In this document: positions 13,963 to 60,448 of the stretch, one piece after another
Layout: every line of letters starts with the position of its first letter
Numbering within the stretch: position 1 is the first letter of the stretch
DNA from: Chitinophagaceae bacterium
Lineage (GTDB): Bacteria > Bacteroidota > Bacteroidia > Chitinophagales > Chitinophagaceae
Reading direction: 5' to 3'
Assembly (NCBI GenBank): GCA_947488765.1
Contig: CANLAE010000004.1
Coordinates: 87,966-151,965 of the forward strand
DNA length: 64,000 bases
Notes under the pieces: model-generated
What the model was told of the DNA's origin: nothing
The model's input: the letters and a program-made list of their open reading frames with translations, nothing else
Database searches by the model: none
Made by a program: the position numbers and the translations under genes

Positions 13963-16800
13963 TTATTGCTTAATAAAAGTTGTTGTTTGTTTTTCATTAC
14001 CCTGCAATACCTTAACTATGTACATACCTGGTGATAGTTTACTTACTTCAATTGGTTGTACACTAGTTGTTCCTGCTTGAATGTTGCCATTGCCAGTTTT
14101 TAAAATTGATCCTTGTACATTACACAATTGCCAGTTGTAATTACCTGTATTACTAGAGCTGATTGATAAATTACCAAGACTATTCAATGGATTTGGAGAT
14201 ACTTTTACTTGAAGTCCTTTAATAGTTTTGTTGGATTTTATAAAAACTACATTAGAAAAAACAGGGGCTGCATTAGGTTCTGTTGCTAAAATTCTAAAGT
14301 ATGCTCCGTTAGTATTAAGGAAATGTTTGTATGAAAAAATTGAATTAAGTTCTGCAATTTGTTGATAATTGATCCCATCAATACTAGTCTGAACAAAATA
14401 TTTCACTTGAGAACCTGATCCACCAATCTTCCATGACAAATTAACTCTGTTGTCATTTTCAAGAACACCCGTCAACGTTATATTTCTTAGTGGTAATATT
14501 TCTAAAATATTCCCCGACCACATTCCTCTGCCATGAGTTGCAGCAACTACAGTATTATCAGATTTACGAAGTTTAAGCATATCTGTTCTTACCAATGGAA
14601 ATCCTGGACTAGGAAACCATTGTGTACTTCCTCCATTAATTAGTCCTGTTGTAAATACACCAGCTTCTGTAGCAATCAATAATTTATTGTTGTCAGTTGG
14701 ATGAAAAACAGCCCAACGAACAGGCATATCTGGTAAATTTCCATCAATTCCTGTCCATGAAGTACCTCCATTATTTGAATACCAAACATTATTAATACCG
14801 TAATTGGAATACACTGCCAATAAATTATTATCATTTGTACCAACTGCAATACAGCTAACATTACCACTTGCAGGTTGATTGAGTAATGTTACATCGCTAG
14901 ATCCAGAACCTGTGGTAGAAATGGTATTATTGACTCTTATTATTCTTCCGGTACTAGATCCAAAATAGGCTCTCCCTGTAGTATATGGCGAAACTTGAAT
15001 AGTTGATACAATTCCATTTAATTCTGTTAAAGAAATCGTATTGGTAGATGCTGTGCCACTAGCCGTTTGCGGGTCATTCCATCTAATGAAAGAATTATTA
15101 TTTGCTCCACACAACATAATATTTTGAACATCATCGTAATCAAATGGATTAATAAAATCTCCAATTGTTGATGAAATATTAAAGCTTGACCAACTTGCAC
15201 CTCCGTTTGTACTTCTTCTGTATTGGTTATAAACATAACTTGTAAATTGATACTGAGGTTGATCCTGATCGATATCTACAAAAGCACCATCTCCTCCGGT
15301 AACTTCTGTACTATAACTCAATCCGGCATTTTTAAATTGATGGCTTCCATTATCTTGAGCTCCTCCTAAAACATAATTTGCATCTGATGGATGTATTGCA
15401 CAAGAGTAAAATTGTTTAATTGCTAAATTTTTGTTTCGGTCTATAAATGTAACCCCGTTATTCAAGGAATAAAAAATACCTCCATCTGTAGCAATACTAA
15501 TAATATTTTGCGTTTCACCCAGTTTTGTCCACTGCATTAAATGATGGTCAGCATGAACATATGGAGCATTTGTTACCCAATAAGTAAGTCTTGAATATGT
15601 TTGTCCATCATCAGATGATTTGTAAGCATCCAATCCACCTACAATAATCTCATGACTGTTGGTAGGATTTATTGATAAGGTAAGATCGTACCAAGCTTGT
15701 GTATTAGCAATATTTGGCATTGCAACTGAATTCATTTTGCTAAATGTGACTCCTCCATCAACTGATTTGTAACAACTATCTACATTGTTAGATGAGTTAG
15801 AGGTAACTGCATATACGGTATCAGCTATAGTAGCCAATTCCAATCTACGAGCTATTGTTGAAGAGTTACGAATTCCTGTAGAAGTTGTCCATCTTAAAGT
15901 TGAGGTAGCAGTAGCAGGTGAACTTGTAAATCGATGAAAAACAGTTGAACCACCAAATCCAAAACTAGCATGTAATATTCCTGTACTTGATAACTCAAGA
16001 TCTGTACAAGTGGTACTTGAAGCTGAACTTGGTCTGATGTCAGTCCATGAAACACCACCATCTTTACTTCTTAATAAACCACTGCCACCTGTAGCATAAT
16101 AAATATTTCCGGAAGCATCGCAAATTATTTTAAAGCTTCTGCCAATTCCTGCAGTGGCTCCAAGTTGTGTCCATGTTACACCATGGTTAGTTGATTTATA
16201 TACACCATTTCCACGCACAGCACCCAAATTGACCCAAGGTTCACCCGTAGCACAATACATAATATCCAAATTTGTGGGATCTTGTGCAAAGGATACAATC
16301 GACATATTGCTCATCGCATCATTTACTGCAACCCAGTTTGGCGCCGCTGTTGTTGAAAGAAAATTTGTACATTTCCAAATTCCTCCGCATGCACCACCAG
16401 CAAATACAGTATTCCCAGTTGGGTCTCCAGCATCAACAATAAAGCCATTCATTCTTCCGGAAGAATATGCCCCTGTGCCACCTGCTCTTGTATTTCCATT
16501 GCTTGGTCCTACGCTATCAAAAATTGGCCCTCTTTCTTGCCAGGCAACTGTAAGTGAACGATAATTATTAGATTGTTTTAGAGCTTCTGTGTAGCTAATT
16601 GCATCCCATAATCTCTCAATTGGCACACTTCCCAATGCAGGATCTTTTGTCATTTCAAATTCGTGTTGCATGATTTCTCTGATACCATCGTACTCTTCAT
16701 GCTCTTCACCTTCTTTTTCCAATTTTTGATGATTACAAGATGTTGTAGTAATAAGCAATAAAGAAAATAGAATTGGAAGTGCACTTAAATATTTTTTCAT
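13963..16800 (-). CDS. BNR/sortilin-like beta-propeller protein with T9SS type A sorting domain
   Basis: 945-residue exported protein. Residues 1-22 form a signal ending TTTSC, compatible with a lipoprotein signal. The body (about 80-760) holds repeated BNR/Asp-box-like units (SKDGGVSWTD, SVDGGVTFSK, STNGGASWSS, SNNGGTSWTG), as in sialidase or VPS10/sortilin-type propellers. A fibronectin-like stretch follows, then a C-terminal Por secretion domain (KVSPNPLNSLGNLSI ... LSPGMYIVKV) that marks T9SS cargo. The catalytic residues of a sialidase are not evident, so no enzyme activity is claimed. It lies 90 nt downstream of metG. Confidence 0.85.
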   Translation of the reverse strand: MKKYLSALPILFSLLLITTTSCNHQKLEKEGEEHEEYDGIREIMQHEFEMTKDPALGSVPIERLWDAISYTEALKQSNNYRSLTVAWQERGPIFDSVGPSNGNTRAGGTGAYSSGRMNGFIVDAGDPTGNTVFAGGACGGIWKCTNFLSTTAAPNWVAVNDAMSNMSIVSFAQDPTNLDIMYCATGEPWVNLGAVRGNGVYKSTNHGVTWTQLGATAGIGRSFKIICDASGNIYYATGGSGLLRSKDGGVSWTDIRPSSASSTTCTDLELSSTGILHASFGFGGSTVFHRFTSSPATATSTLRWTTSTGIRNSSTIARRLELATIADTVYAVTSNSSNNVDSCYKSVDGGVTFSKMNSVAMPNIANTQAWYDLTLSINPTNSHEIIVGGLDAYKSSDDGQTYSRLTYWVTNAPYVHADHHLMQWTKLGETQNIISIATDGGIFYSLNNGVTFIDRNKNLAIKQFYSCAIHPSDANYVLGGAQDNGSHQFKNAGLSYSTEVTGGDGAFVDIDQDQPQYQFTSYVYNQYRRSTNGGASWSSFNISSTIGDFINPFDYDDVQNIMLCGANNNSFIRWNDPQTASGTASTNTISLTELNGIVSTIQVSPYTTGRAYFGSSTGRIIRVNNTISTTGSGSSDVTLLNQPASGNVSCIAVGTNDNNLLAVYSNYGINNVWYSNNGGTSWTGIDGNLPDMPVRWAVFHPTDNNKLLIATEAGVFTTGLINGGSTQWFPSPGFPLVRTDMLKLRKSDNTVVAATHGRGMWSGNILEILPLRNITLTGVLENDNRVNLSWKIGGSGSQVKYFVQTSIDGINYQQIAELNSIFSYKHFLNTNGAYFRILATEPNAAPVFSNVVFIKSNKTIKGLQVKVSPNPLNSLGNLSISSSNTGNYNWQLCNVQGSILKTGNGNIQAGTTSVQPIEVSKLSPGMYIVKVLQGNEKQTTTFIKQ

Positions 16801-40122: not shown

Positions 40123-43100
40123 ATGAAAAATCTGAAATTTACAATCCTAATAGCTTTTTTTTTAGGAATATTTAGCTTACAATTTACACTTCTTCTCGCC
40201 CAAAGGCAATATACCACACAATCAGTGCTGGCTGCGGGCAATTGTTATAAATTATCTACAAAAATTGAAGGTATTTACAAGGTGGATGTCTCTTTTTTAA
40301 ATAGCCTGGGTATCAATACAAATAACTTGGCATCGGCCTCCATTCAGCTTTTTGGAAATGGGGGTAAAATGTTGAACGAAAACAATTCAGTTTACCCCTT
40401 GGATGATGTAACCGAAAATGCAATTGAAATGTTTGATGGTGGTGACGGAGTTTTTAATGGAAATGATTTTTTTTTATTTTACGGACAAAGTCCAGATAAT
40501 TGGCTGAAAGATAGCATCAATCAAAAATTTATTCACCAGAAAAATATCTACGCAGATAGTGTAATTTATTTTATAAAAATTGGCAACAATGGCAAAAGAA
40601 TAAACTCCAGTAATACTATATCAATAGCTAATAAGTTTGTTACGAGTTTCAATGAAAGGTATTTTTATGAGCATGATTTAATCAACTTTTTAAATAGTGG
40701 GAAAGAATGGTTTGGGGAAGAATTCAGTAGTTTGCCAGGCAACAGTTTATCTCGATCATTTGCTGTTGATATGAGTGGTTTAGAACCTGCGCAACCAATA
40801 CAACTGAATACCAACTTAGCATGCAGAAGCATTGGCTCTTCGAGCAGTTTTTCTGTTACTGTAAATAATCAAATTGTTCAGAACATAAATATGGGGATTG
40901 TATCAGGTAATTTTTTAGAGGCTTTTGTTACAAATAATTCTCAAAACTCTTTTTTTTCTGCAAGTAATAATTTACTCAATATTTCTTTCAATTTTAATCC
41001 ATCATCACTTTCTGCTCAGGGCTGGTTAAATTGGTTTGAGTTACATGCAAGAAAAAAATTAAGTATGGCTTCTCAAAATCAATTATTTTTTAGAGACTGG
41101 CAAAGTGTGGGTACAGGAAATATTGTAAAATATACTATAAATAATTGTACTTCTACAACTTCAGTATGGGATATTACAAATTCTTTTGTTCCAGAAAAAA
41201 TATCAACAACTTTTGGTAATGCACAATTAACTTTTAATAGAGAATCAAGCAGACTTAGAGAATTTATTGTTTTTAATAATTCTAATTATTTAATACCCGT
41301 GCCTATTGGTAAAATAGACAATCAAAATTTACATAATTCTCAACAAGTAGATTATGTAATAATTGCTCCTCCTGTTTTTTTGTCAGAAGCAAAAAGACTT
41401 GCACAATTTCACCAACAACAATATCAGTATAAAGTAATTGTAGCAAGTACTACAGACATTTTTAATGAATTTGCATCCGGGAATGCCGACCCTTCTGCAA
41501 TAAGGGATTTTGTAAAAATGTATTTTGATAAAGCCGCCGGAGATACAACTAAAATACCTAAATACTTATTACTTTTTGGTGCTGCTTCATTCGACTATAA
41601 AAATCGATTGAAAAACAATACAAACTTTATTCCCTGTTATGAAAGTATCAATTCAATCGATCCTTTGTTAAGTTATACTTCTGATGATTTTTTTGCTTTA
41701 TTAAATGATGGGGATGATATTAATTTAAATGCACCTCCAAGTCAATTGGATATTGCTATTGGTAGGATTCCCGTTTCTACAATAGATGAAGCAAAAAACG
41801 CTGTAGATAAAATCATCAATTATCATTCCAAATCGAGCTTGGGACAATGGCGAAATAATACTATTTTTACTGCAGATGATAAAGATGGAAACACACACTT
41901 AAATGATGCAGAGGTTGTTTCAAAAAATGCTAATACAACCAATAATTTATTCAACCAGAGTAAAATTTATTTAGATGCATATCCGCTGGTAAGTGGAAGT
42001 GGAGGGGGTAGATATCCTGCTGTGAATAATGCAATTGTTAATCAAATTTCTACGGGGGCATTATTCTTTAATTACAATGGTCATGGGGGTTACAACCGAT
42101 TGGCAGATGAAGCTATTTTAAGTCAGGATGAAGCCAATCAATTTAATAATGCCAACAAACTCCCTTTATTTATTACTGCTACATGCGATTTTGTTCCTTA
42201 CGATGACCCTACAAAAACCGCATTGGGAACATCATTATTAGTTGCAGAAAAAACTGGTGCTATTGGTTTGGTTACTACAACAAGAGTTGTATTTGCTTTT
42301 AGCAATAGAATTATGAATGATAATTTTTTAAAAATAATTCTCAAGAAAGACATTGCAAAAGGGTACTTAACATTGGGCGAATCGGTAAAACGAGCAAAAA
42401 ATGAAACATACCAAAATTATTCGGATGTAATAAATAACAGAAAATTTACACTGATTGGTGATCCGGCAATTCAACTAGCTTTTCCGAAAACAAATATTCA
42501 AATTACCAATATAAATAATCATCCAATAACAGGAAATGACACTTTAAAACCTTTAGCCAAATACACATTTAGTGGACAGATACTGGACTTGAATGGTGCC
42601 CTACAAAATAATTTTAACGGAACTATTTATCCTGTTTTATTTGATAAAGTACAATTAATAAAAACTTTAGGTAACGATCCACAAAGTCCTGTTGCACAAT
42701 TTAACCAACAAACCAATGTAATTTATCGGGGTAAGGCAACAGTTCAAAATGGGTTATTTGATTTTTCATTCATTGTACCAAAAGATATTAATAATCAAGT
42801 TGGTAATGGCAGACTTAGCACGTATGCAGAAAATGGCATCACAGACGCAAATGGTGTTTTAAATTCATTTTTAATTGGGGGTGTTGGTAATAATCTTATC
42901 TCAGATTCAAAAGGTCCCGAAATAAAAGCATACTTGAATGATGAGAAGTTTGTTAATGGAGGATTGGTCAATGAAAGACCTATTTTAATTTTACAACTAT
43001 CAGACTCATCCGGAATAAATTCTAGTGGAATCGGTATTGGTCATGATATCACCGCTGTAATTGATGGAGATGAAAAGAATATTATTGTATTAAATAGTTT

Positions 43101-43563
43101 TTATGAGTCAGCTCAAGATAATTATCAAAATGGAACTATTCATTACCAACTGAATTCATTAAGTGATGGTGTTCATTTCATCAAAATAAAAGCATGGGAT
43201 ATTGCTAATAATTCATCTGAAATTATTATTGAGTTTTTAGTGGCAAAAACGCAGCAATTAAAAATTCATCATGTTTATAATTATCCTAATCCTTTTACTA
43301 CAAGTACAAATTTTTGGTTTGAGCATAATCAACCCTCTACCAATTTAAATGTGCTGATCAATATTTATTCGGTTTCTGGGAAATTGGTACATCAAATCCA
43401 GCGGTCAATCATTAGTGATGGAAATAGAGTAAATGATATTTTTTGGGATGGAAAAGACAAATTCAATCAAAAATTAGCACGTGGTGTATATTTTTATCGT
43501 ATTATTGTGTCGAGTTTGTTTGGGCAAAAAGCTGAAACTACTCAAAAAATATATTTATTGTAA
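40123..43563 (+). CDS. porU: Type IX secretion system sortase PorU
   Basis: 1146 residues. Signal peptide at 1-27 (IAFFLGIFSLQFTLLLAQ). A C25 (gingipain-like) peptidase domain is in the middle with catalytic His654 (FNYNGHGGYNR) and Cys688 (ITATCDFVPYDDP). The C-terminus has its own CTD-like domain (YNYPNPFTTSTNFWFEHNQP). PorU cleaves the CTD from T9SS cargo and transfers it to A-LPS at the cell surface. It is divergent from gldJ and 110 nt upstream of porV, its partner in the attachment complex. Confidence 0.95.
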   Translation: MKNLKFTILIAFFLGIFSLQFTLLLAQRQYTTQSVLAAGNCYKLSTKIEGIYKVDVSFLNSLGINTNNLASASIQLFGNGGKMLNENNSVYPLDDVTENAIEMFDGGDGVFNGNDFFLFYGQSPDNWLKDSINQKFIHQKNIYADSVIYFIKIGNNGKRINSSNTISIANKFVTSFNERYFYEHDLINFLNSGKEWFGEEFSSLPGNSLSRSFAVDMSGLEPAQPIQLNTNLACRSIGSSSSFSVTVNNQIVQNINMGIVSGNFLEAFVTNNSQNSFFSASNNLLNISFNFNPSSLSAQGWLNWFELHARKKLSMASQNQLFFRDWQSVGTGNIVKYTINNCTSTTSVWDITNSFVPEKISTTFGNAQLTFNRESSRLREFIVFNNSNYLIPVPIGKIDNQNLHNSQQVDYVIIAPPVFLSEAKRLAQFHQQQYQYKVIVASTTDIFNEFASGNADPSAIRDFVKMYFDKAAGDTTKIPKYLLLFGAASFDYKNRLKNNTNFIPCYESINSIDPLLSYTSDDFFALLNDGDDINLNAPPSQLDIAIGRIPVSTIDEAKNAVDKIINYHSKSSLGQWRNNTIFTADDKDGNTHLNDAEVVSKNANTTNNLFNQSKIYLDAYPLVSGSGGGRYPAVNNAIVNQISTGALFFNYNGHGGYNRLADEAILSQDEANQFNNANKLPLFITATCDFVPYDDPTKTALGTSLLVAEKTGAIGLVTTTRVVFAFSNRIMNDNFLKIILKKDIAKGYLTLGESVKRAKNETYQNYSDVINNRKFTLIGDPAIQLAFPKTNIQITNINNHPITGNDTLKPLAKYTFSGQILDLNGALQNNFNGTIYPVLFDKVQLIKTLGNDPQSPVAQFNQQTNVIYRGKATVQNGLFDFSFIVPKDINNQVGNGRLSTYAENGITDANGVLNSFLIGGVGNNLISDSKGPEIKAYLNDEKFVNGGLVNERPILILQLSDSSGINSSGIGIGHDITAVIDGDEKNIIVLNSFYESAQDNYQNGTIHYQLNSLSDGVHFIKIKAWDIANNSSEIIIEFLVAKTQQLKIHHVYNYPNPFTTSTNFWFEHNQPSTNLNVLINIYSVSGKLVHQIQRSIISDGNRVNDIFWDGKDKFNQKLARGVYFYRIIVSSLFGQKAETTQKIYLL

Positions 43564-49472: not shown

Positions 49473-50537
49473 ATGTCAAATTACATTTCTACAGAAGTGA
49501 CAGATGAGATATCTTTTGCTGAAATTAAGACCAAGATTAAAAGTTGGCTTTTTCATCTCAAACAATACTGGTGGAAGCTTTTATTGGTTGGTATCCTCGG
49601 TGGGTTGCTTGGGTTACTGTATGCCTTTATAACACCCAAAAAGTTCACAGCAAAATTGAGTTTTGTAGTAGAAGAAGGTAAATCTACCACCGGAGGTTTA
49701 GCATCTTTAGCAGGACAACTTGGATTTGACGTGGGCAGTAGTTCAACAGGAGGAACGAGTGGGCTATTATACGGAGAAAATTTGTTGTTGTTTTTAAAAA
49801 GTAACAATCTTACTAAAGAAGTTTTATTAACACCTTATGATACTTTAAAAAATTATTCTTTGGCTGATAAATATGCAGAAGTTTATAAATTAAGAAAAAA
49901 ATGGACAAAAAGCAGGAAAATTAACCAAACAGTATTTTTTCCAGTTACTCACACTTTACCATTTACAAGATTACAAGACAGTTTGTTGCATTTGATATGC
50001 GAGAGAATTTTATTAAAAGAAATAAAAGTTGAACGACCAGAAAAAAAAGCATCTTTCATCAATGTGGAAACAACACTGAGAGATGAATTATTGTCAAAAT
50101 ATTATTGCGAAAGATTAGTAACAAAGGCCGTTGCTAAATACATTTACTATAAAACAATGCGACAAAAAACCAATGTAGACCGCTTACAACAAAGGGCAGA
50201 TAGCATAGGCAATATTTTAAACAATAAAACATTCATCAGTGCATCTGATCAGGAAAAAATACTAGATGTGAATCCAGCTGCAAGAACAGCTACCGTAAAT
50301 GCTGAAATGAGCAGTAGAGATAAAACAATGATGCTTACACTCTTTGGTGAAGTAGTAAAAAACCTGGAGATTGCTAAGGTTCAATTAAGCCAGGAAACAC
50401 CTACCATTCAAATGGTGGACACTGTTGATTTGCCATTAGACGACAATACTAAAGACGATATGTATTTCCCTTTCATTGGGTTTTTAATATTTTGTTTTTT
50501 ATCTACACTGATTATAATTGCAAACAAATTCTTTTAA
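49473..50537 (+). CDS. Wzz-like chain-length determinant
   Basis: 354 residues. Two transmembrane helices (about 30-50, LLLVGILGGLLGLLYAF; and the last 22 residues, FPFIGFLIFCFLSTLIII) flank a periplasmic domain with coiled-coil-forming stretches. It belongs to the Wzz/polysaccharide co-polymerase family. No cytoplasmic BY-kinase domain follows, so it is the O-antigen-type (PCP-1-like) rather than the Wzc-type. It probably sets polymer length with the Wzy polymerase. The end overlaps the flippase start region by 20 nt. Confidence 0.87.
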   Translation: MSNYISTEVTDEISFAEIKTKIKSWLFHLKQYWWKLLLVGILGGLLGLLYAFITPKKFTAKLSFVVEEGKSTTGGLASLAGQLGFDVGSSSTGGTSGLLYGENLLLFLKSNNLTKEVLLTPYDTLKNYSLADKYAEVYKLRKKWTKSRKINQTVFFPVTHTLPFTRLQDSLLHLICERILLKEIKVERPEKKASFINVETTLRDELLSKYYCERLVTKAVAKYIYYKTMRQKTNVDRLQQRADSIGNILNNKTFISASDQEKILDVNPAARTATVNAEMSSRDKTMMLTLFGEVVKNLEIAKVQLSQETPTIQMVDTVDLPLDDNTKDDMYFPFIGFLIFCFLSTLIIIANKFF

Positions 50538-51837
50538 ACAATTTTTTTTGAAAATTAATGTGCATAGTAGGGTTATCCGAAATTTTTTTCATTTAGGTGC
50601 GTATCAATTAGCAAACCTACTTTATCCAATTTTAATTTCTCCATACCTTATTTCTAAAGTGGGGATAGATAATTTTGGATTATTGGTATCTGCTCAAGCG
50701 TTAATGACTTTTCTGATAATTATTTGTGATTATGGTTTTAATATGACGGCTACCAAGGATATAAGCTTATCCTCTAACAATATGAAATCAGTCGAGGTCA
50801 TATTTAATTCTGTTATGTGTGTTAAATTCTTATTGCTATTTGTTTGTTTTATATTTTTATTGTTTTTAATAAGTTTTGTTCCATTTTTCATAAGTCATTC
50901 ATTTTTATTTCTTATCTCTTTTCTTATTCCTCTTGGACGCACTTTTTTTCCTATCTGGTTTTTTCAGGGTATGCAAAAAATGCAGTACTTAATATTTTAT
51001 TCTTTTTTTTCAAAAGGAATAGCTGCTGTTTTAATATTTTCTTTAGTGAATTATAGAGAGGATTATTTAATTGTCAATCCGATCATTGGAGGGATGGATT
51101 TTTTAGCAACACTTATTATCATCATCATAGCTAAAAATAAATTCAAGTTGTCTTTTTTTTTACCTGGAATTAAAAACATAAAAGAGCAAACCAAAAAGAG
51201 TTTTTTTATGTTTACTTCTATCTTTTTTAGTAATATCTCTACCAATTTGGGGGTTATAATTTTGGGTAATTTTGTAAGTCCCATAGATCTTGGAATATAT
51301 TCAGTTGCTGAAAGAGCAATCTTGTTAATTAAACAATTTCCATTAATAATATTTCAAGCTGTTTATCCCCATGTCTCAAGGATGTGGATAGAGTCTAAAA
51401 TTTATTTCTTTAGATATATTAAAAACCTATTCTTTTTTTTATTAATCTGTATTAGTTTGATTGCTTTTTTTACAGCTTCTTTTTCAGAAACTATTAGTTT
51501 ATTTTTTAGTCATGAAAATAATAAAGAAATCGGAATCCTATTAAAATATATGGTCTGTTTAACAATAATATCTGGTCTAAATATTCCTGCATTTATCGTT
51601 ATTTTACTGACTGAAAAAACGAAGTTTTTTTCTAGCCTAGTAGTTTTTGCAAATATATTTTATTTGCTAATTGGCTTTTTTCTGTCCTATAAATATGGCT
51701 ATTGGGGAATTGTAATAGCTATTTTAATTTGTGACTTAATCATCACTATAGCCAATAATTTTATGGCCATAAAATTAAAGTTGTTTTATTCTGATAATAA
51801 AACCAGCATTAAAATATCAGAGGTCAATATAAATTAG
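50518..51837 (+). CDS. wzx: Wzx-type oligosaccharide flippase
   Basis: About 439 residues (425-439 depending on start), 12 or so transmembrane segments, MOP superfamily (PST). The N-terminal LGAYQLANLLYPILISPYLISKVGIDNFGLL is typical. It moves lipid-linked repeat units across the inner membrane. The start is uncertain: TTG at 50518 (overlapping wzz), TTG at 50548 or GTG at 50560 all give a plausible N-terminus; no ATG is in frame. Very AT-rich with many Phe/Ile/Leu codons. Confidence 0.88.
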   Translation: MQTNSFKQFFLKINVHSRVIRNFFHLGAYQLANLLYPILISPYLISKVGIDNFGLLVSAQALMTFLIIICDYGFNMTATKDISLSSNNMKSVEVIFNSVMCVKFLLLFVCFIFLLFLISFVPFFISHSFLFLISFLIPLGRTFFPIWFFQGMQKMQYLIFYSFFSKGIAAVLIFSLVNYREDYLIVNPIIGGMDFLATLIIIIIAKNKFKLSFFLPGIKNIKEQTKKSFFMFTSIFFSNISTNLGVIILGNFVSPIDLGIYSVAERAILLIKQFPLIIFQAVYPHVSRMWIESKIYFFRYIKNLFFFLLICISLIAFFTASFSETISLFFSHENNKEIGILLKYMVCLTIISGLNIPAFIVILLTEKTKFFSSLVVFANIFYLLIGFFLSYKYGYWGIVIAILICDLIITIANNFMAIKLKLFYSDNKTSIKISEVNIN

Positions 51838-51927: not shown

Positions 51928-53295
51928 GTGAACACAATAAAAAATATCAAAAACATGTTTCAAATAGGTTCTCTAAATAATTTAATTTTAAAAAAATCAT
52001 TTTTAAAGGATGTTTTAATATTATTCACTGTTTTAATTTTCACATCCTGTTGTCTTTTTTTTGAAGTTTATTTAAATGCCTTTTTTTTAAAATATACATA
52101 TCTTTTTGTACTTTTTTTCTGTCTGATACAATTAGTTAGAAATTCTCTTAAAAGTAAAGTTTTGTTTATACTCTTAAGTTATATGCTACTTTATTTTATA
52201 AAACTTAAATCATACTTATTTAGTGATGTAATTATTTTTAATCCTAATTCTTTTGATGATATAAGGTTTACTTACAGAACAATTTTTTTATATGAGTTGT
52301 TCTTTTTCATTTTGTTTTTCTTTATTCGAATTGAACATTTTCGTTTTTTTAGTGAAAGATTAAAGTTGTATCCCAATCGACACATTTTTTTAGCATTAAT
52401 AGCGCTCTCCTTATTAATCACATTTTTTGTAAAAAACGGGAGTTATTTATTTTTGAGTAATAGTGATATAGCTTATGGTGAAAATAAAATAAAGACAAGT
52501 GGACTTATTGAATATACAATATTTATATTTTTTGTAGCTTTTATCTTTAAACCTAAAGGATATTTATTCAATATTATTTTTTATTTTGCTATTGTATATT
52601 ACAGTTTAAAAAATCTGTTATTAGGAGGTCGAATTGAAGTATTACAACTAGGGATATTATTGTTTATACTTGTTTTTGAAATAAAGTCAAAATGGAAAGT
52701 GTTGTTGACATTTTTAATTTTTGGTTACTATATCATGTCAATTTATGAAAATGTAAGATTAAACCCAATAAAACTAGCAACTTCATCATTTACTGAAACT
52801 CTATTAATTCCTTTTGAAGCAAATAAAGGCGAGTCCTTTATTTCTAATGAAGGTGAAGTTTTTAGTTCGACCAATAGACTTGTTTCGATGTCAGATAAGT
52901 CAATTCTTTCGATAGAAACCAGGGCATTTAGTTTTTTAGCCTTTTTAGCCTCTGTTATTTTACCTTATAATATTTTACCAAATTATGCTGTTCTTGACAC
53001 ATATTTACAAAATACCTATATTTCCTATGGTGGAGGTATGATCTTAGGGTACATGTATGTTTGGTTTGGTATAATTTCAATCATATTTGTACCTTATTTT
53101 ATTGGGGTATTTGTTAAATATTTGGGTGAGGCAAGCAGTCAATATACACTTTTCTATGGAGTACTCTTCTTAACTACTATGCCAAGATGGTTTGCCTATA
53201 ACCCAATTGTATTAATAAAGGCAAATTTATTTGGCTTTTTATTATATGTTATTTGTATAGCTATACACATAAAAATGTACAAAAAAAAGCATTGA
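51928..53295 (+). CDS. wzy: Wzy-type polymerase (O-antigen/EPS repeat-unit polymerase)
   Basis: 455 residues, 10-12 predicted transmembrane segments with a larger periplasmic loop around residues 290-350 containing several charged residues (NLLLGGRIEVLQLG before it, ASSQYTLFYG after). Wzy proteins are poorly conserved, so the call rests on topology and on the place between wzx and glycosyltransferases. The start is GTG 51928, or ATG 51955 in the same frame. It would join flipped repeat units in the periplasm. Confidence 0.75.
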   Translation: MNTIKNIKNMFQIGSLNNLILKKSFLKDVLILFTVLIFTSCCLFFEVYLNAFFLKYTYLFVLFFCLIQLVRNSLKSKVLFILLSYMLLYFIKLKSYLFSDVIIFNPNSFDDIRFTYRTIFLYELFFFILFFFIRIEHFRFFSERLKLYPNRHIFLALIALSLLITFFVKNGSYLFLSNSDIAYGENKIKTSGLIEYTIFIFFVAFIFKPKGYLFNIIFYFAIVYYSLKNLLLGGRIEVLQLGILLFILVFEIKSKWKVLLTFLIFGYYIMSIYENVRLNPIKLATSSFTETLLIPFEANKGESFISNEGEVFSSTNRLVSMSDKSILSIETRAFSFLAFLASVILPYNILPNYAVLDTYLQNTYISYGGGMILGYMYVWFGIISIIFVPYFIGVFVKYLGEASSQYTLFYGVLFLTTMPRWFAYNPIVLIKANLFGFLLYVICIAIHIKMYKKKH

Positions 53296-56047: not shown

Positions 56048-56602
56048 ATGAAATCCAGAGTTAGGCTAGATTTATTTAATAAACATTTTGAATTAGATAG
56101 AGAAAGTAGTTTCGTAAAAGAAATTACTTGGTACTTAGTAAAATCTTTTTTTTTTCTAACTCCATTTCCGTTTCCTAATTATTTTAAAAGCTTTTTGTTA
56201 AGACTTTTTGGTGCTAAAATTGGTAAAGGGTTAATTATTAAACCAAGGGTTAATATACATTTTCCTTGGAAACTAGAAATGGGAGATCATGTATGGATTG
56301 GCGAAGAAGTCTTTATTTTAAATTTTGAAAAAATATCAATAGGAAATAATGTTTGTATCTCACAACGTGCATTCTTGTGTGGAGGTAATCATAATTATAA
56401 AGTTAGTACAATGCCATATAAGAATGGGAAAATAATACTTCGGGATGGTTGTTGGGTAGGTGCTAATGTTTTTATTGCTCCGAATGTTGAAATAGGAATT
56501 GACACAGTTGTATCAGCTAGCAGTATGGTTAATAGAAACCTAGAATCAAACTCAATTTATGCAGGTAATCCTGCGATTTATATAAAGCAAAGATGGGAGT
56601 AA
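56048..56602 (+). CDS. wcaF: WcaF-like acetyltransferase
   Basis: 184 residues. The N-terminal part (KEITWYLVKSFFFLTPFPFPNYFKSFLLRLFGAKIGKG) and the following hexapeptide beta-helix (MGDHVWIGEEVFILNFEKISIGNNVCISQRAFLCGGNHNY) are characteristic of WcaF (colanic acid acetyltransferase) and relatives. His in GGNHNY is the usual catalytic His region. It probably acetylates a lipid-linked sugar. It follows a 170-nt gap after the FkbM gene. Confidence 0.86.
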   Translation: MKSRVRLDLFNKHFELDRESSFVKEITWYLVKSFFFLTPFPFPNYFKSFLLRLFGAKIGKGLIIKPRVNIHFPWKLEMGDHVWIGEEVFILNFEKISIGNNVCISQRAFLCGGNHNYKVSTMPYKNGKIILRDGCWVGANVFIAPNVEIGIDTVVSASSMVNRNLESNSIYAGNPAIYIKQRWE

Positions 56603-56640: not shown

Positions 56641-57213
56641 ATGCTTGAAAAATTAAAAAAATACTGGTGTTCGCTATCCTACAGAATTCAAAAATTTATT
56701 TTAGTAGCTATTTTTTTAGTGCTTAGCTGGAAGATTGTATACTACACTCTTTTAAAACCCCAAAGACTGCTTGATAAACCTCTAACATCACTTACAGCAA
56801 ATTTTACAATTAGTGGATATAATTTTTTTACAAGCGAAGGATTAACAAACTATCAAAACCTACCTTCTGATAATTTTACCCATTACTCTGAAATTATTTT
56901 AAAAAATAATCATAGAATTTTAAGTATTGCTGACCCTTGTAATGCATTAGAATTAATGGTTTTATATGTTGGTTTTTTATTTTGCTTATACACTAATTAT
57001 AAAAGAGTATTCTTTTTCAGCATTATTGGAATAATTGCCATTTTTATATTAAACATAATGCGTTGTTATGGAATGATTTGGATTGCAATGCACCAAGTTG
57101 GTTGGTTTCATATAGCACATCATTATGTATTTACTTTAGTTGTGTACTCCTTCATCTTTTTGTTATGGGTTTTATATACAAAATCATTTAATACCGCTAA
57201 CAATGAAGTATAG
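56641..57213 (+). CDS. Exosortase/archaeosortase-family membrane protein
   Basis: 190 residues, four to five transmembrane helices. The three exosortase catalytic positions are visible: Cys100 in ADPCNALELMVLYVGF, Arg141 in LNIMRCYGM, and His160/161 in AHHYVFTLVVYSF. It is shorter than EpsH/XrtA (about 280) and similar in size to Bacteroidota types such as XrtF or XrtX. Exosortases are membrane cysteine proteases that cut C-terminal PEP-CTERM-like tails and are often tied to EPS loci. ATG 56641 is used; the track's TTG two codons earlier is less likely. The 3' end overlaps the next gene by 11 nt. Confidence 0.8.
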   Translation: MLEKLKKYWCSLSYRIQKFILVAIFLVLSWKIVYYTLLKPQRLLDKPLTSLTANFTISGYNFFTSEGLTNYQNLPSDNFTHYSEIILKNNHRILSIADPCNALELMVLYVGFLFCLYTNYKRVFFFSIIGIIAIFILNIMRCYGMIWIAMHQVGWFHIAHHYVFTLVVYSFIFLLWVLYTKSFNTANNEV

Positions 57214-57589
57214 ATTTTGGATAGCTTTAATTTTAATTGTATTGTTTTCAGTAACAATGAATCAATTTTTTTTTGATACAAAGAAATATTTATCAGAAGA
57301 TAAATATTTTCGAAATTATTTAGAACTGCTGAGTGTTGCAATTACAGGTTTGCTAGGTTTAATTTATTTCTCCAAAGAAGCTAAAAACAATATAGGTTCC
57401 TTATGGAAATTAATATATATTATCGGGGGTAGTTTTTTATTAGTTACTACTTTAATAGATAATTATTTATTTCAATTTTCTAAAGGTGGACAGTATAGGT
57501 TTTATGCTATGAAATCAATTTTAATCGGACCTATTTTTTTTTTGATTTTGACTCTTTTAGAAAAATTGAATTTAAATAAAAGAAAATGA
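57203..57589 (+). CDS. Small membrane protein coupled to the exosortase
   Basis: 128 residues with four transmembrane helices (about 5-22, 40-57, 66-85, 105-121) and a basic end (LNLNKRK). The ORF track starts at 57140 in frame, but the ATG at 57203 (MKYRFWIALIL) is natural and gives an 11-nt overlap with the exosortase stop (ATGAAGTATAG), which indicates translational coupling. It is probably an exosortase-associated membrane protein. No catalytic motif is seen. Confidence 0.7.
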   Translation: MKYRFWIALILIVLFSVTMNQFFFDTKKYLSEDKYFRNYLELLSVAITGLLGLIYFSKEAKNNIGSLWKLIYIIGGSFLLVTTLIDNYLFQFSKGGQYRFYAMKSILIGPIFFLILTLLEKLNLNKRK

Positions 57590-57631: not shown

Positions 57632-58894
57632 ATGAAAAGCAACAAGAAAAAAACTATCCTAATTTATGGTATAAATTATTATCCAGAATTAACAGGAATT
57701 GGTAAATATAACGCTGAACTTGCAACTTGGATTCAATCCAATACTAACATACAGGTTGTAGCATTAACTGCTTTTCCCTATTATCCTAATTGGAAAGTAT
57801 TTAAGGATTACAGAAATAGGTTTTATGTTAATAAAAATATTGAGGAAGTAACAGTTATTCGTTGCCCTATTTATGTTCCAAATAAACTATCAGGAATTAA
57901 TAGAATAGTTCATGATTTTTCTTTCTTATTTTCCTCATTTTGGGCATTGCTTTATTTGAGGATTTTTCATCAAAAATTTGATTATATTTTATCTGTCGCA
58001 CCTCCATTTTTAATAGGATTGAATTCAATATTTTACAAACTAACATCGTCTAAAACAAAAGTTATTTATCATGTACAAGATTTACAAATTGATGCTGCTG
58101 ATCAAATTGGAATGATAAAATCTGGTTTATTATTAAAAATCATGTATTCAGTTGAGAGATTTATTATTAAAAAGGTGGATGTTGTAACAACAATTTCAGA
58201 TGGAATGAAATTGAAACTATTACAAAAAGAACAAAGAAAAGTTACAATTTTTCCAAATTGGGTTGACAGTAAATTGGTTTTTCCTGTTCAATTTCCAAAA
58301 TACCCTTTACTAGAATATGAAGATAGGATGGAGAATAAAATAGTAATATTTTATTCAGGTGCAATGGGTGAGAAACAAGGACTAGAAATTCTTATAGATA
58401 TAGCATCAAATCTTCATAAAAATAATCACAAGGAATTTATTTTTATGTTGTGTGGAGAGGGTCCATATAAAGATATTTTATCAGAGAAAATAAAATCTCA
58501 AAATATTGAAAATATTATTTTTGCTGATTTGCAACCAATAAATAAGTTTAATTTGCTTTTAAATTATGCTCACATACATTTGGTACTGCAAAAGAAATCA
58601 GCAACTGATTTAGTTTTGCCATCAAAATTGACAAATATTTTGGCTGTTGGTGGTGTTTGTATTGTAACAGCAGAACCAAATACAACCCTGTATAACTTAA
58701 TTTTTGATAACAAAATTGGTTTTGTAGTGGAACCCGAAAATGCTGAAGCTATAGTAGATATTTTGTTGGATTTCAAAATAAGTAATAATTCAAATGTGCA
58801 AAACATTAAAAAAAATGCTATTGAATATGCAAAAACCCATTTAAATAAAGAAAGTATAATACCTTCCTTTATCGATTCTATTTTAGAAAATTAA
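57632..58894 (+). CDS. wcaI: WcaI-like glycosyltransferase (GT4)
   Basis: 420 residues. The N-terminus ILIYGINYYPELTGIGKYNAELATWI and the LTAFPYYPNWKVFKDYR segment are those of WcaI-type transferases. The GT-B C-terminal domain has FYSGAMGEKQGLEILIDIA, LCGEGPYKDIL, and a donor-site segment VLPSKLTNILAVGG. It likely adds a sugar to the repeat unit in the cytoplasm. Second of two dedicated glycosyltransferases in the locus. Confidence 0.9.
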   Translation: MKSNKKKTILIYGINYYPELTGIGKYNAELATWIQSNTNIQVVALTAFPYYPNWKVFKDYRNRFYVNKNIEEVTVIRCPIYVPNKLSGINRIVHDFSFLFSSFWALLYLRIFHQKFDYILSVAPPFLIGLNSIFYKLTSSKTKVIYHVQDLQIDAADQIGMIKSGLLLKIMYSVERFIIKKVDVVTTISDGMKLKLLQKEQRKVTIFPNWVDSKLVFPVQFPKYPLLEYEDRMENKIVIFYSGAMGEKQGLEILIDIASNLHKNNHKEFIFMLCGEGPYKDILSEKIKSQNIENIIFADLQPINKFNLLLNYAHIHLVLQKKSATDLVLPSKLTNILAVGGVCIVTAEPNTTLYNLIFDNKIGFVVEPENAEAIVDILLDFKISNNSNVQNIKKNAIEYAKTHLNKESIIPSFIDSILEN

Positions 58895-59053: not shown

Positions 59054-60448
59054 ATGCAAACAAAAAATAATTATTTATTAAGGTTACTAATAGACATATT
59101 ATTTATAACGCTTTGTTTTTATATTTCTAAGAAAATATCTTATTTCTTTAATGTACAAGCTCCCATAAGAAATGGTTTTTTATTAGTGTACACAATCTTT
59201 TTTTGGTATTTTTCATCTCAGGCTACATTTTTATATAAACATTTTCTGACACGGACAATATCTGAAGAATTAATATTAGTAATTCAGACGATATTACTTC
59301 AATTTACTTTTTTAGTTTTTTCTTTTTTCTTCCTATCTCATAATCCCTTAGATGCTAAATGGTTTGCTATTACTTTTTTAATTATTGAATTGATTGTATT
59401 GACAGTTTTAAAATATGTCACAAGATTCTATCTAGGGAATTTAATAAATAAAAGCAGACATAAAAATAATTTGATTATTGTTGGAATAACAGAAAATAGT
59501 CAAATACTTGTTGAATATATCAATCAACACCCATCTTTGGGTTATAAAATAATCGGATTTGTCGATGATGTTTACCCTCACAATTTCAAGGATCAATATT
59601 TGGGGAATATTAAACAACTTGAATTAATACTACAAGAAAAAATAGTAAACGAAATAGTAATAGCGCTTTCAATTAATGATGTAGATAAGATTCAATCAGT
59701 TGTCAAAATTTCCCAGGATAATGGGAAACGTGTTATGCTTATACCTGATTATTATCTATATTCTTCTAAATTCTCTTTAATCAACTTAGGTTCATTACCC
59801 ATTATTACCTTGAATACCATTCCTCTTGACAGTGTAGAGCTTCGTTTTTTTAAAAGGGCATTTGATTTGATAATAACTTTATTTGTATTTGTATTTATAA
59901 TTAGTTGGCTTTTTCCGATTGTAGCTTTATTAATCAAATTGACTTCTGAAGGACCTGTTTTCTTTGTTCAAGAAAGATGGGGCATGAATAGTAATAAAAT
60001 ATTATGTTATAAGTTTAGGACGATGTATTATAAAGCAAATAATGAAATAGATACAAATGGTAATTTTAGGCCAACTGAAAAAAATGACAATAGAATTACC
60101 AAAATTGGTGCTTTTTTAAGAAAGCATAATTTAGATGAATTTCCTCAATTTTATAATGTTTTGAAAGGTGAAATGTCACTGATAGGACCAAGGCCGCATG
60201 CATCATTACAAAATATTGAAATGAAAAGTATAATAAATAATTACAATGTTAGACATTTTGTAAATCCTGGTATTACAGGATGGGCTCAGGTAAATGGTTA
60301 CAGAGGGGAAACTAAAACTATAGATTTAATGCAGAAAAGAGTCGATTATGATATTTGGTATATTGAAAATTGGAGCTTTTGGCTTGATTGTCAAATTATT
60401 TTGCAAACAGTCATTAACATGATAAAGGGTGATAAGAATGCTTATTAA
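59054..60448 (+). CDS. wcaJ: WcaJ-like initiating sugar-1-phosphate transferase
   Basis: 464 residues. N-terminal four to five transmembrane helices (1-125), a CoA-binding-like middle domain (NLIIVGITENSQILVEYINQ ... GFVDDVYP), then the catalytic PGT domain: KRAFDLIITLFVFV, GPVFFVQERWG, FRTMY, LDEFPQFYNVLKGEMSLIGPRPH, PGITGWAQVNGYRG. It transfers sugar-1-P (probably Glc-1-P) to undecaprenyl phosphate and so starts the repeat unit. It closes the EPS locus, with 159 nt of unremarkable AT-rich DNA before it. Confidence 0.94.
   Translation: MQTKNNYLLRLLIDILFITLCFYISKKISYFFNVQAPIRNGFLLVYTIFFWYFSSQATFLYKHFLTRTISEELILVIQTILLQFTFLVFSFFFLSHNPLDAKWFAITFLIIELIVLTVLKYVTRFYLGNLINKSRHKNNLIIVGITENSQILVEYINQHPSLGYKIIGFVDDVYPHNFKDQYLGNIKQLELILQEKIVNEIVIALSINDVDKIQSVVKISQDNGKRVMLIPDYYLYSSKFSLINLGSLPIITLNTIPLDSVELRFFKRAFDLIITLFVFVFIISWLFPIVALLIKLTSEGPVFFVQERWGMNSNKILCYKFRTMYYKANNEIDTNGNFRPTEKNDNRITKIGAFLRKHNLDEFPQFYNVLKGEMSLIGPRPHASLQNIEMKSIINNYNVRHFVNPGITGWAQVNGYRGETKTIDLMQKRVDYDIWYIENWSFWLDCQIILQTVINMIKGDKNAY

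Follow-up and report, generated by a model that had tools for sequence, protein, structure and literature searches.

Gene content of the locus

The window, i.e., the whole stretch of 64,000 nucleotides analyzed here, harbors two overlapping genes on the forward strand: an XrtX-like exosortase gene at 56641..57213 (+; ATG start, 190 aa) and a gene encoding a four-helix membrane partner of the XrtX-associated type at 57203..57589 (+; 128 aa), with 11 nt in common. The first-pass annotation had described a 190-residue membrane protein with Cys100, Arg141 and His160/161, overlapping a 128-residue four-helix protein by 11 nt, and its coordinates, residues and overlap all proved exact; the respective codons lie at 56938–56940 (Cys100), 57061–57063 (Arg141) and 57118–57123 (His160/161). 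Its placement of the pair between wcaF-like and wcaI-like genes was likewise borne out, both flanks scoring above the cut-offs of these families: the WcaF-family acetyltransferase at 56048..56602 (+; NF007797, 208 bits, cut-off 192) and the WcaI-family glycosyltransferase at 57632..58894 (+; NF007640, 384 bits, cut-off 276).

The surrounding exopolysaccharide (EPS) locus further includes a WcaJ-type undecaprenyl-phosphate glucose phosphotransferase at 59054..60448 (+; TIGR03023, 432 bits, cut-off 411), a Wzx-type polysaccharide flippase at 50518..51837 (+; PF01943, E = 1e-31) and a Wzy-like polytopic membrane protein at 51928..53295 (+), which has no family match and was assigned from position and hydrophobicity. 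Wza- and Wzz-like genes lie farther upstream and, as with Wzy, were judged by eye only. The proposal that the two genes co-occur across EPS loci held in one half: the pair is kept in nearly every relative, but EPS-type genes were present at up to 6 kb from the enzyme in only 9 of the 50 related XrtX loci, indicating that the EPS linkage of XrtX is not general.

Identity of the exosortase and its partner

The enzyme scored 40.8 bits against the exosortase superfamily signature TIGR04178 (cut-off 23), which settled the exosortase identity assumed from the letters. The best subtype was XrtX (NF046081, 108.6 bits, E = 3e-31) and, since this score falls under the XrtX cut-off of 170, the enzyme is named XrtX-like. 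XrtF came second (TIGR04128, 63.3 bits, cut-off 90), and XrtY (NF046083, 26.6 bits, cut-off 160) and the Pfam EpsH family (14.4 bits, cut-off 25.7) also remained under their cut-offs. Relatives were gathered in two partly overlapping sets, 27 sequences from 399 genomes of the order and 50 loci from named genomes, the collection scan for the loci using a close set of seven exosortases. The Cys, Arg and His were invariant in both sets; the conservation among orthologues that had been put forward as a check was found in 48 of 48 exosortase sequences for C100, R141, H160 and H161, together with N101, G130, N138, Y169, F173 and W176. From this pattern, C100, R141 and H160 are the predicted catalytic residues of the enzyme. 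Its AlphaFold model (AF2, pLDDT 91) consists of membrane helices and a small strand-rich segment placed just before Cys100. No PDB relative was found by sequence, and a structure search with the AF2 models of both proteins against the PDB gave no meaningful match.

A tree with 61 rows separated XrtX-like from XrtY-like enzymes at 100/100 support and placed the window protein on the XrtX side, inside a Chitinophagaceae XrtX branch (100/99) whose neighbors outside the family include both proteins scoring over the XrtX cut-off. The divergence of this branch accounts for the fact that the cut-off of 170 was reached in only 2 of the 399 genomes of the order. The enzyme, the partner family and the substrate tail discussed below are already named in NCBIfam, and the window pair is a divergent member of this known XrtX system; no paper on exosortase X, XrtX or PID-CTERM came up in the literature searched.

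The partner was modeled by AlphaFold as four long helices (pLDDT 89). An HMM built from the partners of relatives, trained without the window protein, retrieved it at E = 1.2e-16 as the best match in the window, where there was no other convincing match. The NCBIfam model for the XrtX-associated membrane protein (NF046082) did not match it and recognized only 2 of the 23 relatives in the same position, therefore covering a small part of the partner family. A partner gene immediately followed XrtX in 46 of the 50 loci in one scan, in 47 after start-site correction and in about 48 when the scans were combined, which left only L262 (at a contig end) and L289 (with a partial enzyme) without it.

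Candidate substrates

The genome was searched with profiles, family by family. It encodes seven small Sec-exported proteins with a PID-CTERM tail (P-[IVLF]-D-G-G, a helix and a basic end), four of them over the NCBIfam cut-off (NF046080) and three weaker but clear paralogues. The common tripartite C-terminus for which a genome-wide scan had been proposed was thus found by profile, and all seven candidates lie outside the window, in agreement with the earlier observation that no protein in the window carries a sorting tail. Of the two alternatives raised at first, a substrate encoded elsewhere is supported by these seven proteins, which make the other, a glycan-linked role without a classical substrate, unnecessary. 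A stricter form of the latter, in which the pair no longer sorts proteins and acts solely in exopolysaccharide assembly without any tagged substrate, would fit a pair lying between glycan genes in a window lacking a tagged protein, but with tagged proteins present in the genome, the catalytic residues intact and EPS genes not beside most relatives we consider it very improbable.

An exosortase was present in 74 of the 76 PID-CTERM genomes of the order (hypergeometric p = 1.5e-42). In 14 of the 50 loci XrtX was immediately preceded by a PID-CTERM gene; across the class, a PID-CTERM gene stood near an exosortase in 18 of the 28 best loci. In Tamlana (Flavobacteriaceae; L283:5971-6976) PID-CTERM, XrtX and partner genes follow one another in a row, showing that the cassette extends beyond the Chitinophagales. 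A full row of T9SS cargo, PID-CTERM, XrtX and partner was also seen on a contig labeled as a Verrucomicrobia MAG (L244), which is probably a binning error.

A simple rule was used to estimate signal peptidase sites; counted from these sites to the end of PIDGG, the segment was 15–16 residues long in the window's genome (median 18 in the family). Gln was possible at the mature N-terminus in 76 of 95 PID-CTERM proteins, the majority of these peptides being acidic, and such a start fits the Q-rule of Bacteroidetes (PMC5837995, PMC10653852). A 973-aa protein from another genome (L358, G582:C1, - strand), with a hydrophobic N-terminal part and a VPIDGE motif followed by a helix and a basic end, is perhaps an MSEP-CTERM-type target; it was checked as a possible T9SS–PID fusion and is no such fusion.

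The window's genome has a second, XrtY-like exosortase (G000:C7, L010:1222-1779; 84 bits, XrtY cut-off 160), with a TlpA-like gene on one side, a TonB-type outer-membrane gene on the other and no four-helix partner. PID-CTERM proteins occurred in XrtX genomes without XrtY and likewise in XrtY-only genomes, where some of them are encoded behind T9SS cargo genes. A position profile of the tails, contrasting X-only with Y-only genomes, was right in 33 of 39 cases (leave-one-genome-out) and placed the tails of the window's genome near zero or on the Y side. Given the second enzyme and the PID-CTERM proteins of XrtY-only genomes, the seven candidates are not assignable to XrtX by their tails. Taken together, the presence of the XrtY-like enzyme, the XrtY-only genomes and the tail scores are what would be expected if the enzyme on contig C7 processed most of the PID-CTERM proteins, the window XrtX serving a subset or another target. 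This we regard as unlikely: many loci have PID-CTERM genes directly beside XrtX, XrtX-only genomes have them as well, and the discriminator was correct in only 33 of 39 cases.

Pairing with T9SS cargo

Six of the seven PID-CTERM genes of the window's genome are located directly behind a T9SS type-A cargo gene (TIGR04183) on the same strand, out of a genome total of 50 such cargo genes. Across the family, where the CTD profile used for counting had been trained on the unpaired cargos of the window's genome, 56 of the 66 PID-CTERM genes whose upstream neighbor was visible followed a T9SS cargo; among downstream neighbors it was 1 of 94 (order-wide set). Class-wide, 13 of 28 PID-CTERM genes stood behind a cargo gene. 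No report of this pairing was found in the mostly open-access papers searched.

The paired cargos are marked by a module ahead of the CTD, recognized by a motif of the NPYAS/NPYPS type mostly 310–440 residues before the end and present in 45 of 61 paired cargos overall (in one of these, a fragment, the match lies at the cut edge). In the window's genome it was found in 6 of 6 paired vs 1 of 43 unpaired cargos (p = 5e-7) and in a second genome in 7 of 8 vs 3 of 12 (p = 0.02); the motif had been picked after reading the cargos of the former, which makes the second genome the fairer test. Paired cargos from outside the order had the motif less often. The module carries no Pfam or NCBIfam name, and in a scan of ten paired cargos few named features turned up apart from the sorting domain and scattered beta-propeller repeats. 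The cargos before the PID-CTERM genes on contigs C2, C4, C5, C9, C15 and C20 of the window's genome (G000) share the NPYAS module. A single unpaired cargo (L102) has the module and a single PID-CTERM gene (contig C26) is an orphan; both are related to paired counterparts, so that module cargos and PID-CTERM genes number seven and seven.

The exosortase assignment could be right and the pairing nevertheless be a frozen unit of two genes spread by duplication, or a convenience of co-transcription, with peptide and cargo functionally unlinked. Several of the PID-CTERM copies in the window's genome are indeed clear duplicates (C2/C20 and C4/C5/C26), but the pairing extends across many genera and other orders with diverse cargos, is tied to a specific cargo module and, in this genome, leaves an unpaired module cargo balanced by an orphan PID-CTERM gene; we therefore hold this reading to be rather doubtful.

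Exceptions to the arrangement were also seen. The window itself contains two T9SS type-A cargo genes, at 13963–16800 (-) and 40123–43563 (+), and neither has a PID-CTERM gene behind it. Genus g73 (family f9) has a small MGMT-like gene, in place of a T9SS cargo, in front of the PID-CTERM gene (genomes G122, G110, G142, G182, G179, G104 and G128; loci L073, L082, L072, L168, L167, L169 and L159). Single-linkage clustering of the T9SS cargos gave groupings that were too loose and was abandoned.

Proposed role of the exosortase pair

The best joint explanation, to which we assign a probability of roughly 0.6, is that the first gene encodes a transpeptidase-type exosortase from a diverged XrtX clade specific to Chitinophagaceae and the second its accessory membrane protein, the substrates being PID-CTERM proteins paired to T9SS cargos. 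We propose that T9SS surface proteins have small peptide partners, which XrtX trims and conjugates. After removal of the signal peptide, the small PID-CTERM protein would stay anchored in the inner membrane through its C-terminal helix, where XrtX and the partner would cut at or near the PIDGG motif. The cut would leave an acidic peptide of 15–16 residues, its N-terminal Gln probably cyclized to pyroglutamate, and the new C-terminus of this peptide would be passed to a putative acceptor, which may be a glycolipid like those that the surrounding locus makes. Displayed at the cell surface, the conjugated peptide may then be a small, cognate partner for the T9SS cargo whose gene precedes its own. 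The established exosortase model also has a cut at the motif and transfer of the new C-terminus to an acceptor (PMC1569441).

More tentatively, and with somewhat less than even odds, XrtX and T9SS may form one surface-display module in Bacteroidia, in which many type-A cargos marked by a particular pre-CTD domain each have their own pyroglutamate-capped peptide of 15–20 residues, conjugated C-terminally by the exosortase and needed to anchor, gate or assemble the cargo. To our knowledge, what the substrates of bacterial exosortases get attached to is not settled, and mature substrates of about 15 residues would let mass spectrometry read the conjugated group directly. That PID-CTERM genes are so tightly paired with T9SS cargos suggests that two surface-display routes of the Bacteroidota are linked, and it offers a reason for the colonization defects common to Flavobacterium johnsoniae mutants in xrtF and in the T9SS.

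Comparison with known systems

The closest known counterpart is the exosortase X system (NF046081, NF046082, NF046080): the exosortase, the four-helix downstream partner and PID-CTERM substrates are all present, and the window enzyme falls in the tree clade of the sequences over the XrtX cut-off. It departs from this system in its score (108.6 vs a cut-off of 170), in a partner missed by NF046082 and in candidate substrates that are unlinked to the enzyme and mostly encoded behind T9SS cargo genes. XrtF (TIGR04128) of F. johnsoniae also adjoins a small partner gene and has a genetic T9SS link in surface colonization, which is impaired by deletion of either xrtF (Fjoh_1448) or the adjacent Fjoh_1449, as it is by deletions of T9SS genes (PMC10936215); the window enzyme, however, reaches only about 63 bits against the XrtF cut-off of 90. 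The PEP-CTERM/EpsH (XrtA) system with EpsI resembles the window pair in having a Cys-Arg-His enzyme in an EPS locus, a tripartite tail and an extra gene directly downstream (PMC1569441), but EpsH is an eight-helix enzyme acting with a PEP motif, in contrast to the 190-aa window enzyme and its PIDGG motif. Finally, T9SS type A sorting, with PorU and CTD cargo attached to A-LPS (PMC7468200), employs an unrelated sortase and signal, and the PID-CTERM proteins have no CTD; nevertheless, it likewise achieves surface display with C-terminal conjugation, and it is its cargo genes that are paired with the PID-CTERM genes.
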